Source of the DNA: Cupriavidus basilensis
Lineage (GTDB): Bacteria > Pseudomonadota > Gammaproteobacteria > Burkholderiales > Burkholderiaceae
NCBI RefSeq assembly: GCF_000832305.1
Contig: NZ_CP010537.1
Coordinates: forward strand, 1,550,001-1,614,000
Length of the DNA: 64,000 nucleotides
Direction of reading: 5' to 3'
The position numbers and the translations under genes were made by a program. The notes beneath the pieces were generated by a model. The model saw only the letters and a program-made list of their open reading frames with translations, did no database searches and was not told the origin of the DNA. Each line of letters begins with the position of its first letter. The first letter of the stretch is position 1. Shown here one piece after another: positions 4,394 to 9,824 of this stretch.

Positions 4394-5197
4394 TCAACCC
4401 AGCATCAGCCCGGCATGCGCCAGCAAGTGGCGAAACACCGCCAGCCGGGCGTCTCCCGTTTGCGCCAGCTTGCGGCAAACGTGCAGGTGCGCCGTCCTGT
4501 CGCTGTGTCCGCGCAGGGCGTCCTTGCACTCGCGGTCGGAGATTTCCAGGTGGATGCCCGTGAGGATGGCGCAGCCCTTGCCCACGGGCGCGCTGACGAT
4601 GGCGGGCGGGGTGCCTTCCAGGCCCGTGTAGACGGCCAGGATCTGCGCAGCGTGGTGTGTTGCCTCGCCGAAGTCGAAGCGGCAGCCGCCGTGGTAGTGC
4701 GCATACAGCGTGATCGGGGCATGGGTCAGGCTATGGGTCGTGCGTATTTCTGCTGCCGCGGTGCTTCGCGGCGTTGCGTCATACGCGACGCCCCGGGTGA
4801 GTTCGGGCAAGCAGCCAACCGCGACGGCATCCACGAAGCTCAGTTCGCGCGGGCCGCAGATGGCGCCTGCGGTGCCGGCATGGAAGGCGAGTTCCCTGCA
4901 GGCGTAGTACGCGCCCGCGCAGATGCCCAGGTAGGCGCCGCCTTCTTCGACAAAGCGCCGGATGCGCGCGTTGGGCGCGCCGTTCAGGGCTGCGCAATAG
5001 GGCAGGTCAGCACCGCCTGGCATGACAAACATCACGGCATCATCGAAGAGCGTCTCGTCTTGCCGGATGTCGTCGGCCATGACCGCGCGGATCTCGTACG
5101 CGCCGGGAAGCAACTGCTGCCCGATCATCCGCATCAGGCGCGCGGTCCCGTCCGAGGTGCCGGCGTCGATATAGGTCAGGATCTGGGGCTTTTGCAT
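4394..5197 (-). CDS. BPL_N-type class I glutamine amidotransferase-like protein
   Basis: 267 residues. The fold is that of the N-terminal domain of biotin-protein ligase (BPL_N), a class I amidotransferase-like domain: MPGGADLPYCAALNG (about 59-73) and the nucleophile elbow YLGICAGAYYAC with Cys93. There is no ligase domain, so it does not biotinylate protein; standalone BPL_N proteins are of unknown function. A much longer reading frame continues upstream through the next gene, but homology starts at the ATG at 5197 (MQKPQILTYIDAGTSDG). It is transcribed with, and 68 bp downstream of, a LysE exporter gene. Confidence 0.8.
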   Translation of the reverse strand: MQKPQILTYIDAGTSDGTARLMRMIGQQLLPGAYEIRAVMADDIRQDETLFDDAVMFVMPGGADLPYCAALNGAPNARIRRFVEEGGAYLGICAGAYYACRELAFHAGTAGAICGPRELSFVDAVAVGCLPELTRGVAYDATPRSTAAAEIRTTHSLTHAPITLYAHYHGGCRFDFGEATHHAAQILAVYTGLEGTPPAIVSAPVGKGCAILTGIHLEISDRECKDALRGHSDRTAHLHVCRKLAQTGDARLAVFRHLLAHAGLMLG

Positions 5198-5265
5198 GAT
5201 GGTCTGGCTCGGTTGGTCCGCTTGGTCCGTTTGAGCGCGCTGGTGCGGCAGCGGTGCTGCGTGCC

Positions 5266-5910
5266 TCAGGCTTGCGCGCGGCGGTAAAACGCCAGCCCGC
5301 CTGCCAGCGCAATCAGCGTGCCGCCCGACAGCCGGTTCAGCCAGCGCATGCCATCGCCACGAAAGGCGTGCACAATGCGCGCGCCCAGTGCCGCGTACAC
5401 CAGCATGACGGCCAGGTTCAGCAGGCATTGGGCCAGCGTCAGGATGGCGTACTGCGGCAGCAACGCCGCGCTCGTATCGATGAACTGGGGCAGGAAGGCC
5501 GAGATGAACAGCAGCGCCTTGGGATTGGTCAGCGCCACCAGGAAGCTGCGCGAGAACAGGACGCGGCCGCGCGCCGCGGCCGTATCCGGTTCGGTCTGCC
5601 GCACCGTCTGCGCCGTCAGCGGCATTTTGCCTGCGCGCAGCATCTTCCACCCCACATAGGCCAGGTAGGCGGCGCCAAACCACTTGATCGCCTCGAAGGC
5701 ATGCTCGGACGCGGCGATCACGGCGCCAAGCCCTGCGGCCACGGTGACGACCAGGATGACGTCGGCGGCCAGCGCCCCGGCCATGCCCCAGCACGCCTTG
5801 CGCACGCCATGCCGGGAGCCGTTGTTCAGGGCCAGCAGCACGGTCGGCCCGGGGGTGGCAATGGTCACGGCCGAGGCAAAGATGAAGAGCAGCAGGGTGG
5901 CGAGTGTCAT
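5266..5910 (-). CDS. LysE/RhtB-family amino-acid exporter
   Basis: 214 residues, the normal length for RhtB/LysE proteins, with six hydrophobic segments. The N-terminal signature ASAVTIATPGPTVLLALNNG is typical, as is the loop NPKALLFISAFLPQFID in the middle. These inner-membrane proteins export amino acids such as threonine, homoserine, leucine or lysine; the substrate cannot be read from the sequence. The ATG at 5910 aligns with the family start; the frame remains open further upstream. It probably forms an operon with the BPL_N gene behind it. Confidence 0.9.
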   Translation of the reverse strand: MTLATLLLFIFASAVTIATPGPTVLLALNNGSRHGVRKACWGMAGALAADVILVVTVAAGLGAVIAASEHAFEAIKWFGAAYLAYVGWKMLRAGKMPLTAQTVRQTEPDTAAARGRVLFSRSFLVALTNPKALLFISAFLPQFIDTSAALLPQYAILTLAQCLLNLAVMLVYAALGARIVHAFRGDGMRWLNRLSGGTLIALAGGLAFYRRAQA

Positions 5911-6198
5911 GGTGCAATCTGGCTGGCGCACGCGTGGGCGGGCGGGAATCATAGGATGATTGCCTGCCGGCAGATTGTCCAGTGCCTGGCATGCCCGGCA
6001 CTGCCGCGCCATGTGTCGCGCAATTGGCAAAAACGCAAGCCGGGATTGCACGAGATGAGCAGGCATGGCGTGTTTTGATACGATGATGGTTAGAACGCAA
6101 CGGTAGCCCGCAACCGCCATGGCGCTTGCGATGCGCGCTTGAACGAGTCGCGTTCGGCCGGCTACGTTGCGGTTCTCCAATCAAGAGCAGAGACAGCC

Positions 6199-6441
6199 AT
6201 GATCAAAGAATACGCGTGGAAGAAGCGGGTCTTCGAGACCCATGAAGTACAGGTGCAGGTGCGGCCGAGAACGCCCACGGTCTGGGAGTACACGGTGCGG
6301 GTCTGCCGCCCCGGCACGAACATCCGGGCCGCCGGGACGTTGCTGGAATCGTCCAAGGTAACGGACCTGTTCCACACGGCGGACGCGGCGGAGACGGCGG
6401 GTTTTGCCCACGGCGCCGAGCTGGCGAAACGGCTGGCCTAG
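6199..6441 (+). CDS. Hypothetical protein, 80 residues
   Basis: A small soluble protein starting MIKEYAWKKRVFETHEVQV. It is rich in beta-forming residues in the first half and ends with a short helix (ADAAETAGFAHGAELAKRLA). No signal peptide, membrane span or cysteine is present. The start is supported by the purine-rich sequence AGAGACAG before the ATG. I do not recognise the family. It lies just before the phage-like leader region but uses host-like codons and may be unrelated to it. Confidence 0.6.
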   Translation: MIKEYAWKKRVFETHEVQVQVRPRTPTVWEYTVRVCRPGTNIRAAGTLLESSKVTDLFHTADAAETAGFAHGAELAKRLA

Positions 6442-6504
6442 GGTGCGGTTGCAGCCCGGAAAGGGTTGGTAAACGTCGATTTGGTGCTTTTTACCGGCGG
6501 ATGG

Positions 6505-6562
6505 TGTAGCAGTGTGACTTTTTGTAGCGGGTGGTTTGTAGCGTACTTGGTGCCGTTATACT
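6505..6562 (+). promoter_or_regulatory. Probable promoter with three TGTAGC repeats
   Basis: A good -10 box, TATACT, lies at 6557-6562, with a weak -35 candidate TTTGTA at 6535-6540. Three direct copies of TGTAGC (6505, 6523, 6537) run through the -35 region and upstream, so they may bind a regulator. The stretch is clearly more AT-rich than its neighbours. It would drive transcription of the c4-like leader and the two small ORFs behind it. Confidence 0.5.
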
Positions 6563-6589
6563 GCGCAGGTCGTTGCAACCACAGCGACC

Positions 6590-6797
6590 GGGTTTAGCAG
6601 CCCGCGGAAAAAGGTGGACAATCCGCCATCAGGCGGCTTTTTTGTCCGTCACGCCTTCGTGCGCCCCTACGGGCGGGCCTGGGCGGGGGAGCCTTCGGGC
6701 TCGCCGGTTCCTTTTTCCCGGTCTGCTAACCTCGCCTTGCGCCCGCCCACCCCGATTAGCAGCGGGGAGCGGAGTCGAATCCGCGTGAAAAAGGAGG
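6590..6797 (+). ncRNA. c4-like structured leader / antisense RNA
   Basis: Two short motifs occur twice in sense and once in antisense. TTAGCAG (6594-6600) and GGAAAAAGG (6606-6614) come first; their complements CCTTTTTCC (6710-6718) and CTGCTAA (6723-6729) lie in the middle; TTAGCAG (6756-6762) and GAAAAAGG (6787-6794) recur at the end. The last copy includes the ribosome binding site AAGGAGG (6791-6797) of the following ORF. This order of a/b sites, complementary a'/b' sites and target sites matches the c4 RNA of phages P1/P7, which blocks translation of icd-ant. Additional stems (GGACAA/TTGTCC with CCGCC/GGCGG at about 6617-6647; GGGCGGG pairing with CCCGCCC) support a folded RNA. The exact ends are unknown. 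Confidence 0.7.
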
Positions 6798-6804
6798 CAC
6801 ACCC

Positions 6805-6909
6805 ATGCCCCAGTCTTCGCTCGCCCGTCCCGGGCAACTCTCACCGCCCAAGCCAGCCATCCTCTGCCAGCGCCTGCGCGCCTCCCAACGGAGGGCGCCC
6901 GATGCATAG
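6805..6909 (+). CDS. 34-residue leader ORF, icd-like position
   Basis: ATG at 6805 with a strong ribosome site AAGGAGG eight bases upstream, encoding MPQSSLARPGQLSPPK and ending RAPDA before TAG at 6907. The peptide is proline- and arginine-rich and resembles nothing I know. Its value is its position: its ribosome site is part of the target sequence complementary to the c4-like RNA, and its end overlaps the start of the next ORF, exactly as icd overlaps ant in phage P1. It may act mainly as a translated coupler rather than as a functional peptide. Confidence 0.55.
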   Translation: MPQSSLARPGQLSPPKPAILCQRLRASQRRAPDA

Positions 6910-7198
6910 GTATCCGCAGTACAACATCACCGCTCAGCGTGCCGGGCGTGACACCTTCCTAACGGCCCACGCCCCTTCCGAAAGCCCGCTCAGCCTTGCC
7001 GCCGAGAAAACCGCGCAACTCAACGCGCTGCTTTCGGTGGCTGTCGAGAATGCTGCCGGCGGCTCCTTTTGCAACATCACCGAAAAGACGCAGAGCCATC
7101 TGCTTTCGCTGGCTGCCGTGCTCGCGCATGAAACGCTCGTGTTGAGCGAGTTGGCCGCCCAGGAGGATGCGGGTGAGGGCGAGGGCGGCGATGGATGA
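6902..7198 (+). CDS. Small phage/plasmid-type hypothetical protein
   Basis: 98 residues starting MHRYPQYNITAQRAGRDTF, with GGAGGG about seven bases before the ATG and an 8-base overlap with the preceding leader ORF, so it is probably translationally coupled to it. The middle is helical and alanine/leucine-rich; the end is acidic (EDAGEGEGGDG). There is no membrane span. I do not know a function. A longer in-frame reading from 6614 runs through the structured RNA and is unlikely to be real protein. By position it is the counterpart of an antirepressor or other c4-controlled gene. Confidence 0.6.
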   Translation: MHRYPQYNITAQRAGRDTFLTAHAPSESPLSLAAEKTAQLNALLSVAVENAAGGSFCNITEKTQSHLLSLAAVLAHETLVLSELAAQEDAGEGEGGDG

Positions 7199-7403
7199 TG
7201 GCTGGCGGCCCGTTTAGCCACAGCGGGCGAAGATGGCCGCGCGGCGCATGACACCGATACGGTACTTCGCGCGCATCTCGGCTTGGCGGCGCCAGACAAA
7301 GTGCACTGCAACACGCGCCGCCAATCGCCCGCTTGCAGCCCCATGCGGCCATCGACTATGTTGAATCTCAAGGCCGATGTGGCCGTGTCGATGGGGAGCC
7401 GTG

Positions 7404-8237
7404 ATGAACAGGGTCATAGGACACCTGGCCGTGCTCGTTGCCCTGGGCCTGCCTGCCTTGCATGGCGCACAGGCCTCCGACATCGACTGTAAGTCAGCAT
7501 CCGGCGCGGGATCGGTCCGCTGTGAAGATCCAAACGGCAACGGGATGCGATGTGGGCTGGTGACCGGCGGGCGCCCGCGTAACAAGCACCTGGTCTGCGA
7601 TAACGCGGAGCTTTCGACGCGCTACGAGCGCATCTATGCCGAACAGCAGAAGCTGCTGCGCAGCGGCATCACCAACGATGCCGACGTTCGCGCCTGGCGC
7701 GGCAAGCGCGATGCCTGCGGCTCCGTGCGCTGTCTTGATAGCCTGTTCCATGAATGGTGGCGGTGGCGCGATGCCGCCCGCATGAGGCCAGCGCGGCCCG
7801 CCGTTGCGCCGAGCACGACCGTTGCGCCAAGCACTGCCGTTGCGGCCCCTGTCCCGCCAAAGCCGGAGCCAGCACCTCCCGCGCAAGACCTGGCGACGCC
7901 GGTTCAACTGGCTGCCGTGCCAGAGAGCGCGAAGCCGAGCGAGCCGACAGCGCCGGCCGCCGCCGACGTTCAGGCCCCGCCGACCTCAATCGGAACCGGG
8001 CAAGTCCCGTCCGAGCCAGCCTCCGGCACCGTGGCGATGTCAGGCTTGATGTCAGGCTTGCTGGCGGGCCTCGCCGCCGTCGGCATTGGTGTGGCCTGGG
8101 TTTGGAAGCGCAAGCGAGACCGGCGCGCCTCGCTAAAACATGAACCGCGCCCGGCCATCTCCGCAGGCATGGCACTTCTTTATGGCTTGCTTATCGTGAA
8201 CGTGCTGCTTCTGGCGTTCACGCTGAGGTCAAGTTGA
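7404..8237 (+). CDS. Secreted/membrane protein with LprI-like domain
   Basis: 277 residues. A signal peptide (MNRVIGHLAVLVALGLPAL) is followed by a cysteine-containing domain (about 26-120) ending WRGKRDACGSVRCLDSLF, which resembles the LprI/DUF1311 lysozyme-inhibitor type domain. A proline/alanine/threonine-rich linker (about 130-215) leads to two hydrophobic segments near the C-terminus (LMSGLLAGLAAVGIGVAWVW and MALLYGLLIVNVLLLAFTL) separated by a basic loop. It would sit in the inner membrane with the domain in the periplasm. Proteins of this build occur near phage or conjugative regions. The function is not established. Confidence 0.7.
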   Translation: MNRVIGHLAVLVALGLPALHGAQASDIDCKSASGAGSVRCEDPNGNGMRCGLVTGGRPRNKHLVCDNAELSTRYERIYAEQQKLLRSGITNDADVRAWRGKRDACGSVRCLDSLFHEWWRWRDAARMRPARPAVAPSTTVAPSTAVAAPVPPKPEPAPPAQDLATPVQLAAVPESAKPSEPTAPAAADVQAPPTSIGTGQVPSEPASGTVAMSGLMSGLLAGLAAVGIGVAWVWKRKRDRRASLKHEPRPAISAGMALLYGLLIVNVLLLAFTLRSS

Positions 8238-8286
8238 CCCCATGCTCCCGACGGTCCAGAAGGGCCAGACGGCACTAGTCACGCGC

Positions 8287-9621
8287 TCACGTTTCCCGGA
8301 TCTCGCTTAGCACCTCGGCCTCGACCTCCGGGTTCTGTTCGCCATCCCTGGTGGCAATCAGTTCTTTCGGCGTCAGCAGGATCAAGGGCAGGATCAGTGC
8401 GTACACCACGGTCGTCGCGATCACGCAGTAGGTGAATCCGTGCGTTGGGCTGCTGCCGTAGATCCATGAGCCCAGCAGATCGCCGGCACGCGCCGAGAGC
8501 GCGAAAACGCCATCCACCAGCATCATCAAGGTGCCTTGCAAGCCTGGCGGACAGGACCGCATCGCGAGATCGAGGTAGGCAGCCGTGGCGACACCGCCCA
8601 TCAGCCCGATCGGCGCCGCCAACACAAGCGCGAGATTGGCTGAGTGAATGAAGGCCAGCGGAATCATCTGCGGCACCGCGACGATCGTTCCCCAGCACAG
8701 CAGCTTGTTCAGCGGTACTTTCTTGCACAGAAAGCCATAGAGCAAAAATGTCGGGATGAACGCGGCGGCAAAGATCCCGTTGTAGTACGAGTAGACGGAA
8801 TCCGATGCGTGCAGCGTATTGGTCAGGTAGAACTGCAGCGCAGTGGCCGCTCCTGGCGCAAAGTTCCACAGAAAGCAGATGAGCACCGCTGGATAGACGG
8901 CCTTATGCTTGGCCAGCCGCCTGACATTGCCAACGAGATCCGCGCCCCTGGCTTGCGGCTGCTCGTAGATCTGGCCGAAGACGGAAGCGGGCTTCCAGAG
9001 CCCCAGCACGGCAATCATTAAAGTGACTGTCGCCACCAGGATGAAGGCTTCTTTCGCGGCAAGATGATCGGAGATGTACCCGGAAGCGAACGCGCCCGCA
9101 ACGACCGGGACGGAACTGACCACGTTGCACAGCGCGCTCAGGCGCCCAGACATGCGCTTTTCCTGGCCGACCAGGGCGATCAGGCCCTGATAGGCTGCGG
9201 CGACAAATCGGGACGACAGCATGGCCAGCAGCATCCCGATGAGCAGTCCCGCATATGAGAAACCGGAAAACGCGATCCAGAGGAATGCCACCGCGGTCAC
9301 CGGGGCGAAAATCAGGAAGAAGCCGCGATCGCGCAATCCCAGCGGGTTCCATTGGTCGCGCGCGAGGCCAAAAGCAAACGCGATGTACACGGGTATGCCC
9401 GTCATCAGCCGGAACGTCGAGATCTGCGTCGCCGTTGCATGCAACTGATTCTTGAGCAGGTATGACGTCTGTATATCAACCAGGAACCCGGCCGGCGTTG
9501 CCAGATAGATGAACAGGGTCAGCCAGCCGAAATACAGCAGGGTTCGGTCGCTGCCCTCGGCAATATGACGAGCGGGCGCGGCCGGCGTTTTCACAGAGGC
9601 GCGTTTGAAGTGCTTGGACAT
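8287..9621 (-). CDS. MFS / folate-biopterin-type transporter
   Basis: 444 residues with about twelve hydrophobic segments. The sequence around FLWNFAPGAATALQFYLTNT and the following YYNGIFAAAFIPTF block resembles the BT1 (folate-biopterin transporter) branch of the major facilitator superfamily rather than drug exporters. The ATG at 9621 gives a short basic N-terminal tail before the first span; its ribosome site is weak. No biosynthetic or regulatory neighbour helps to define a substrate; the gene is flanked by unrelated operons. Confidence 0.75.
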   Translation of the reverse strand: MSKHFKRASVKTPAAPARHIAEGSDRTLLYFGWLTLFIYLATPAGFLVDIQTSYLLKNQLHATATQISTFRLMTGIPVYIAFAFGLARDQWNPLGLRDRGFFLIFAPVTAVAFLWIAFSGFSYAGLLIGMLLAMLSSRFVAAAYQGLIALVGQEKRMSGRLSALCNVVSSVPVVAGAFASGYISDHLAAKEAFILVATVTLMIAVLGLWKPASVFGQIYEQPQARGADLVGNVRRLAKHKAVYPAVLICFLWNFAPGAATALQFYLTNTLHASDSVYSYYNGIFAAAFIPTFLLYGFLCKKVPLNKLLCWGTIVAVPQMIPLAFIHSANLALVLAAPIGLMGGVATAAYLDLAMRSCPPGLQGTLMMLVDGVFALSARAGDLLGSWIYGSSPTHGFTYCVIATTVVYALILPLILLTPKELIATRDGEQNPEVEAEVLSEIRET

Positions 9622-9785
9622 GGGGGACCACGTACACGTCCTCGGAAAACCAATCGAAGGTGCCCCCGTGAATGTGCGGGCTGCGCCACCGGGCATGGTT
9701 TACAGAATAGAGCGCCAGTGCGGAAAACGTGTAGGTAAAAAATGGGGCTTGATGTTCCGGGGCCGACCGCATTCGCGCGGAGAAT

Positions 9786-9824
9786 GCCGCCCGCGAGCGA
9801 TATGCTGCGCTGCTCGCGGGCGGC
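9786..9824 (-). terminator. Hairpin terminator after the epoxide-hydrolase-like gene
   Basis: A perfect 13-bp inverted repeat, GCCGCCCGCGAGC (9786-9798) and GCTCGCGGGCGGC (9812-9824), begins seven bases after the stop codon of the minus-strand hydrolase gene. On the transcript it is followed by only a short weak T stretch, so it may pause polymerase or protect the 3' end rather than terminate alone. Confidence 0.55.

Follow-up and report, generated by a model that had tools for sequence, protein, structure and literature searches.

The C4 RNA is an immunity element of phages. In P1 and P7 it is a processed RNA of about 77 nt, released by an RNase P cut, according to the excerpted account in PMC5320573. 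The c4-icd-ant system of these phages (immI; represented here by a P1-like Punavirus, record ON470617.2) is ordered as a1b1, C4, a2b2 at a ribosome site, a small ORF and a second ORF overlapping the first, and the locus described here has the same order. The isrK-orf45-anrP locus of Salmonella Gifsy-1, as excerpts of PMC4825925 present it, also shares with our locus an isrK-like 5' element, a terminator-like hairpin and a small ORF overlapping the next one; mutations showed that orf45 and anrP are coupled. It differs in that its output is a prophage antirepressor, and in that activation in trans by short IsrK has been demonstrated there. For B. cenocepacia, the excerpt of PMC4603805 lists a single transcription unit comprising isrK and C4.

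C4-type RNAs are also numerous in the chromosome of Acinetobacter baumannii, as its Group 1 sRNAs, which seem to be released from longer transcripts by processing (PMC5320573, in excerpt). The excerpted description places their variability in the a' loop and mentions no target gene linked in cis, unlike the RNAs of the type found at our locus, which vary mainly in loop b and have an adjacent target. Because of these multi-copy Acinetobacter RNAs (PMC5320573) and of the listing of C4 and c4-a1b1 in the excerpted part of PMC2864571, a chromosomal C4 is not new as such. In the open-access literature, as represented by excerpts, we found no description of C4 modules controlling either of the two small-protein families met here, that of the locus itself and DUF1484.

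We analysed a 64,000-nucleotide stretch of Cupriavidus basilensis DNA (the window), in which an earlier note had proposed a c4-type antisense module controlling two coupled small ORFs away from any phage.

Layout of the cassette

The cassette, at about 6501..7200, is on the forward strand, as are all its features. It was delimited by blastn as the unit common to paralogues elsewhere in the same genome: in a search with window positions 5001-9800, 6501-7200 matched locus L001 at 81.6% and 6476-7200 matched L002 at 80.6%, and nothing else matched either locus beyond the cassette.

The Rfam C4 model (RF01695) matched 6665..6754 with 60.6 bits (E 3.1e-9, cut-off 45), bearing out the RNA family named in the earlier note, and this was the only gathering-level Rfam match across the 64 kb. 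Loop b of this RNA (CCTTTTTCC, 6710..6718) is complementary to an upstream target b1 (GGAAAAAGG, 6606..6614) and to a downstream target b2 (GAAAAAGGA, 6787-6795, extended GAAAAAGGAGG, 6787..6797), which overlaps the Shine-Dalgarno of the first ORF. Segment a (CTGCTAA, 6723..6729) is complementary to a1 and a2, both TTAGCAG, at 6594..6600 and 6756..6762. Both C4 segments can thus pair with two sites, one upstream and one at the ribosome site, over 7 nt for a1, 9 nt for b1, 7 nt for a2 and 9 nt for b2. The motifs and complements are all where the earlier note had placed them, and so are the ORFs: ORF1 (6805..6909, 34 codons), a leader ORF in icd-like position, overlaps by 8 nt ORF2 (6902..7198), which encodes 98 residues.

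The upstream half contains a c4-a1b1 element (RF03163, 6556..6608, 45.6 bits, E 3.6e-10) and an isrK-like RNA (RF01394, 6569..6643, 45.5 bits), both found at a looser threshold directly upstream of C4; the first is only slightly below its cut-off of 46.7, the second is below a cut-off of 50. Elsewhere in the same genome the cut-off was passed at three sites for c4-a1b1 (54.8, 52.1 and 49.3 bits) and at two for isrK (52.4 and 51.5). A terminator scan placed at 6623-6636 a terminator-like hairpin which, with a T tract, ends the isrK-like RNA. A putative -10 element of the leader promoter, TATACT (6557..6562), is the same in 8/8 aligned sequences; a scan with the sigma-70 consensus found no full promoter, a point against the module reading that follows.

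The locus is probably a chromosomal C4-type antisense module, in which C4 blocks the ribosome site of ORF1 and ORF2 is read by coupling. A single leader transcript would carry the a1b1/isrK-like element, then C4, then a2b2 at the ribosome site of the 34-codon ORF. C4 would be freed from it by processing, and its loop b and segment a would pair with a2b2 and repress ORF1. The upstream a1b1 would be a second partner of C4, a decoy or an attenuator. The upstream half is thus possibly a second control step, which adds to the interpretation of the earlier note, supported in the main. A different weighting, unlikely but deserving attention, makes that step the main one: in an IsrK/attenuator-type switch, the decisive pairing would be that of C4 with a1b1, either because a short terminated a1b1 RNA titrates C4 or because C4 promotes termination of the leader, and the direct block at ORF1 would be secondary. 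The isrK-like signal with its hairpin and T tract fits such a switch, as does the trans activation by short IsrK in Gifsy-1 (PMC4825925, excerpted).

Proposed coupling of the two ORFs

The start codon of ORF2 overlaps the stop codon of ORF1 as ATGcaTAG. In a set of 24 window-type C4 loci (at least nine further such loci were left out), a Shine-Dalgarno followed by ATGnnTRA, the same 8-base overlap, was present in 23/24, and the first ORF was found in 19/24, always with 33-36 codons. Several DUF1484-type modules, made of ORFs of 58 and 112 codons, have this overlap too.

The Shine-Dalgarno of ORF2 lies in an inverted repeat inside ORF1 (GCGCCTCC-CAAC-GGAGGGCGC, 6878..6898), and its predicted pairing probability is 0.98 in the window. 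The mean over 23 loci is 0.90 versus 0.77 (sd 0.17) for shuffles, a modest excess, to be set against the module reading. On that reading, ORF2 would be translated when ribosomes read ORF1. Upstream, the frame of ORF2 continues without a stop as far back as 6614 (194 codons). In line with the earlier note, which held long frames through the RNA to be probably not protein, this extension was not treated as protein; stops interrupt the equivalent frame of L001.

Comparison with phage C4 loci

The best of eight phage records was that of the P1-like Punavirus ON470617.2, matching at 68% over 202 nt, where an overlapping CDS is annotated Icd and is followed by Ant1. There, C4 scores 71.9 bits and a1b1 56.2. 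The a code, TTAGCAG/CTGCTAA, is identical to that of the window, and in the two sequences a2 is at +1/+2 and b2 at +30/+33 after C4, distances that agree within 3 nt. Loop b differs, and on the upstream side the phage a1 and b1 are separated from C4 by 10-12 nt more. Three Bordetella phages match too, and the one inspected has an antirepressor directly downstream. A Bordetella phage also carries a Burkholderiales-2 RNA (L212:243-316, 94.1 bits) about 2 kb from its C4.

The c4-icd-ant logic advanced in the earlier note thus stands as to RNA family, layout and overlap, and does not extend to the proteins, as ORF1 and ORF2 are not recognisably Icd and Ant. The module further differs from that of P1/P7 in having no phage found around it and several copies per chromosome.

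Predicted pairing between C4 and its targets

In 5000 base shuffles of the sequence flanking the window's C4, a 9-nt match to b arose 2 times upstream and 5 times downstream, and a 7-nt match to a, taken singly, 200 times upstream and 125 times downstream. With such numbers the a matches are weak and unconvincing by themselves, and the case for the observation comes from the Rfam match and from conservation.

We compared 143 C4 loci, a subset of the C4 matches listed in the genome samples of the genus and the family. Matches of at least 7 nt were counted between each C4 and its own flanks, and after swapping. Upstream, they were found for b in 105/143 loci (swapped, 244/4290) and for a in 129/143 (432/4290). 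Downstream, the counts were 80/143 for b (245/4290) and 89/143 for a (354/4290); 63 of the 143 loci have no 7-nt b match on the ribosome side. A permutation test, which ignores kinship between loci, was run with one locus per distinct b loop (n=98, 2000 permutations). The mean longest match of b was 6.58 at the own ribosome site versus 4.20 permuted, and 7.24 versus 4.97 upstream; that of a was 7.00 versus 5.09 upstream and 5.95 versus 4.18 downstream. In each of the four comparisons 0/2000 permutations reached the observed value. By their sequences, C4 loops are more complementary to their own targets than to those of other loci, which points to covariation of target and antisense. Paralogues and orthologues conserve the paired segments, which change in concert. 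Two of the outcomes that would have refuted the earlier note, no covariance-model match and no conservation of these segments, thus did not occur.

Covariation counts against the switch centred on a1b1. The window and its close relatives have kept a2b2 able to pair in full, the partners changing together, a pattern suggestive of selection on the ribosome site. On the other hand, a terminator-like hairpin precedes C4 in 82/143 loci versus 23/143 shuffled (by a lenient rule), in favour of attenuation.

A syntenic group of loci from 11 species, of C. necator type and with the same protein family (for example G015:C2:95622, G008:C2:945906 and G024:C2:257399), pairs unevenly. Upstream, a matches by 7 nt in 11/11 and b by 4-12 nt; on the downstream side, the lengths are 4-6 nt for a in 10/11 and 4-5 nt for b in 11/11. 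Since the upstream pairing is kept and the ribosome-site pairing has mostly decayed, the upstream one may be what matters there, as the attenuator-type switch would have it. Even in this group, however, the T tract is weak by eye, and some members have short b matches upstream (G028, 4 nt; G024, 5 nt), which argues against that switch. The 11 loci separate, by nature, the upstream from the ribosome-site pairing.

Copies in the genome and in relatives

Where the earlier note had seen a module standing alone, the 8.4-Mb genome, in two contigs, has five C4 matches, and the cassette belongs to a family of modules. Three are of window type, with a common segment a and different b segments, TTCCTTTTTC, TTCCTTCTTA and GTTCTCTGTC, which pair with their own ribosome sites by 9, 9 and 7 nt; upstream, the b1 of L001 matches over 5 nt only, which counts against the module reading. 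Eight distinct a1b1/isrK sites (E up to 0.001) occur in this genome, all directly upstream of genes of the window family (six, which is every copy found there) or DUF1484 genes (two of four). C4 lies between element and gene at four of these eight sites, and at the other four it does not.

Of 60 genomes sampled from the genus, at least 40 have C4; of 200 from the family, at least 86 do (over the cut-off in 84), representing at least 16 of 25 genera, and the richest genome has at least 20 C4. The 24 window-type loci have 17 distinct b loops, and a is CTGCTAA in 21 of them. Grouped by upstream flank, they form sets of 11, 3 (including the window) and 2, and eight singles.

The window locus is syntenic in G047, at 86% over 5001-7201, and by its upstream flank in G056. 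In G056, a different species, a1, the a segment of C4 and a2 have all switched, from TTAGCAG/CTGCTAA to TTGACAG/CTGTCAA, and b1, b and b2 have changed as well. No other single observation speaks as strongly for function as this coordinated change, which was seen at one locus.

At least 62 places of the window family were found in 26 of the 60 genomes of the genus, 28 of them without C4 among the matches listed. Twenty of the 28 were looked at: 19 have an a1b1/isrK signal (E up to 1) and two a C4 signal, of 51 and 44.3 bits, the second 0.7 bits under the cut-off. The one place without a1b1/isrK signal, L164, is cut by a contig end. C4 therefore seems dispensable for some copies, most of which keep a1b1/isrK, and this retention in 19/20 again favours the pairing or termination at a1b1 as the decisive step. 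Together with the 11-species group, the copies without C4 count against one uniform mechanism.

Sixteen copies (L154, L155, L156, L158, L159, L161, L162, L165-L173) have the 98-residue gene with a1b1/isrK upstream and no Rfam C4 match. L154, L156, L158 and L159 retain a repeat of the b motif ACGTAG at the ribosome site; a fitting C4 loop was present, among the loops compared, in the genome of L154 only. Control of such copies in trans by a distant C4 was not supported, as a pattern search in four genomes found nothing. The loops compared were 5/5 of G000, 4/4 of G047, 2/2 of G038 and only 2/6 of G049, where the negative accordingly holds less firmly. Among seven copies set against the C4 loops of their own genomes, L154 matched G047:C368 by 9 nt, in loop b only, and the other six matched by at most 5 nt.

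Some copies are damaged. L142 in G038, orthologous to window 5635-8235, has deletions corresponding to 6632-6777 (C4 and a2) and 7065-7199 (the 3' part of ORF2). Another G038 copy has a stop in ORF2 and a C4-like stretch by eye, with no Rfam C4 match. In G039 and G046, ORF2 has stops although C4 is still there. L005, in G000, is an orphan C4 without small-protein genes, a deletion remnant beside a sequence that by eye resembles tRNA-Ser; it is syntenic with a full module surviving in G056 (loci L005, L115, L067).

The leader-ORF overlap and the cis-encoded antisense RNA also recall hok-mok-sok, a system to which the coupling can be likened. It is improbable, though, that the cassette is an addiction module of the type I toxin-antitoxin kind, with a harmful ORF2 and C4 as its RNA antidote. 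The G038 orthologue that has lost both C4 and the 3' part of ORF2 would agree with an addiction module, and so, less clearly in view of its C4-like stretch, would the other G038 copy. Yet the matched ORF2 is free of stops in 19 of the 20 copies without listed C4, stops occur in G039 and G046 where C4 is present, and the orphan C4 of L005 persists although its small-protein genes are gone. The modelled ORF2 product, a beta hairpin and two helices (see below), is not a small hydrophobic peptide either.

The ORF2 product and other outputs

A search with the window family gave 83 proteins (E up to 0.001). The organisms named among the matches listed are Cupriavidus, plus one compost metagenome, with many entries bearing no name, and the 25 named genome loci of the family belong to Cupriavidus or 'Burkholderiaceae bacterium 16'. 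The AlphaFold2 model of ORF2 (pLDDT 84.6, pTM 0.69) combines a beta hairpin with two long helices, and Foldseek found no match for it among PDB and viral models (E up to 0.001). Against Pfam and PHROG, no family was below E 0.08, antirepressor types (Ant/KilA-N/Bro-N) included.

No relative of ORF2 was found by tblastn in 50,697 phage records, nor in 72,556 plasmids, and none of 19 pattern matches in an IMG/VR scan was confirmed; to this extent the lack of a phage seen in the earlier note holds. The label DUF3077, borne by the UniRef source names of some relatives, was not retained, since no such Pfam match occurred among 61 members (E up to 1). Kinship with DUF1484-type families was likewise not detected (hhalign probability below 1%), while these families are related among themselves by hhalign.

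Behind the 143 C4 loci, we found the window family, DUF1484-type proteins, a third family with the text LTKNR, five Bro-N-like proteins, one KilA-N and many unsorted products. Since sorting was by short text motifs, leaving 48 'other', several of them DUF1484-like by eye, these class counts are rough; of the five Bro-N-like proteins, all assigned by text motif, two were checked, and confirmed by Pfam. In genus g24 of the family (for example G123, G157, G100; genomes mostly of 4-6.5 Mb), where the richest genome has at least 20 C4, many C4 loci looked at precede genes for proteins about 120 residues long that share the text LTKNRTYLNGA; no Pfam match was obtained for the single member tested.

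DUF1484 genes likewise sit behind C4 modules, in 6 of 12 Pfam places from this genus and another family. A gathering-level C4 is upstream of L174, L176, L177, L181, L182 and L183, including two genomes of family f28; L184 and L185 have an isrK or a1b1 signal only, and L175 and L178-L180 have none. VioS is annotated with DUF1484 at 8.35e-3 in the excerpted PMC5339254, and excerpts of PMC11019928 and PMC13043044 report its direct interaction with the LuxR-type regulator CviR. By analogy, VioS-CviR may be a lead to what C4-controlled proteins do.

Surroundings of the cassette

Between 1 and 18.3 kb, the neighbours are ordinary: LrgB, MFS, glutaminase, LysE, an AP_endonuc_2-type barrel, a GDSL lipase, CDH, a PBP-type binding protein and one ORF without Pfam match. 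PHROG matches occurred in 4/10 neighbour ORFs of this region, two MFS proteins and LysE falling in families of unknown function and the binding protein matching a phosphate transporter subunit; no integrase, replication or structural family was found among the ten. The nearest PF00589 integrase domain of the genome is 378 kb off. As far as the PF00589 scan and PHROG on ten ORFs reach, the earlier note was right to see no integrase, replication or structural genes nearby.

An 80-residue ORF just upstream of the cassette (6199-6438) has no Pfam match and a best PHROG E of 0.16. Downstream, 7404-8234 encodes a predicted 277-residue protein with matches, many of them partial, in 50/60 genomes of the genus; it has no Pfam family over the cut-off, and its relatives L143-L145 are without cassette.

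A decaying remnant of prophage immunity, with no present function, could be suspected from the orphan and truncated copies, and from the C4 RNAs that precede phage-type antirepressors (the five Bro-N-like and one KilA-N of 143). We consider this very improbable: no PF00589 integrase lies within 378 kb, no phage relative of ORF2 was found, and the coordinated change of pairing sites at a syntenic locus suggests selection, as does the maintained ORF overlap.

Discussion

The reading of the locus as an antisense module, with C4 blocking ORF1 and ORF2 translated by coupling, is sequence-based: it draws on membership in an RNA family, conserved order and spacing, three-way covariation and the conserved overlap. 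The output would be a regulatory small protein. At this locus the phage C4 logic, including the ribosome-site spacing and a P1-like a code, stands before a small protein that is not of phage type, and the chromosome has several copies whose pairing codes differ.

More tentatively, and with somewhat less than an even chance of being right, we propose that in Burkholderiales chromosomes C4 modules serve as exchangeable antisense cassettes, beyond their part in phage immunity. They would have been recruited to at least two small-protein families without recognisable kinship, the window family and the DUF1484-type one, and multiplied within genomes, their loop b diverging into largely private codes. 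The outputs may bind host regulators and so neutralise them, as Ant does a phage repressor and as VioS is reported to do with CviR.

Such modules would be natural sets of putatively orthogonal antisense switches. The relatives with ribosome-site pairing and the clade that keeps mainly the upstream pairing offer a contrast for testing, and the cassettes would give an entry point to two uncharacterised small-protein families.
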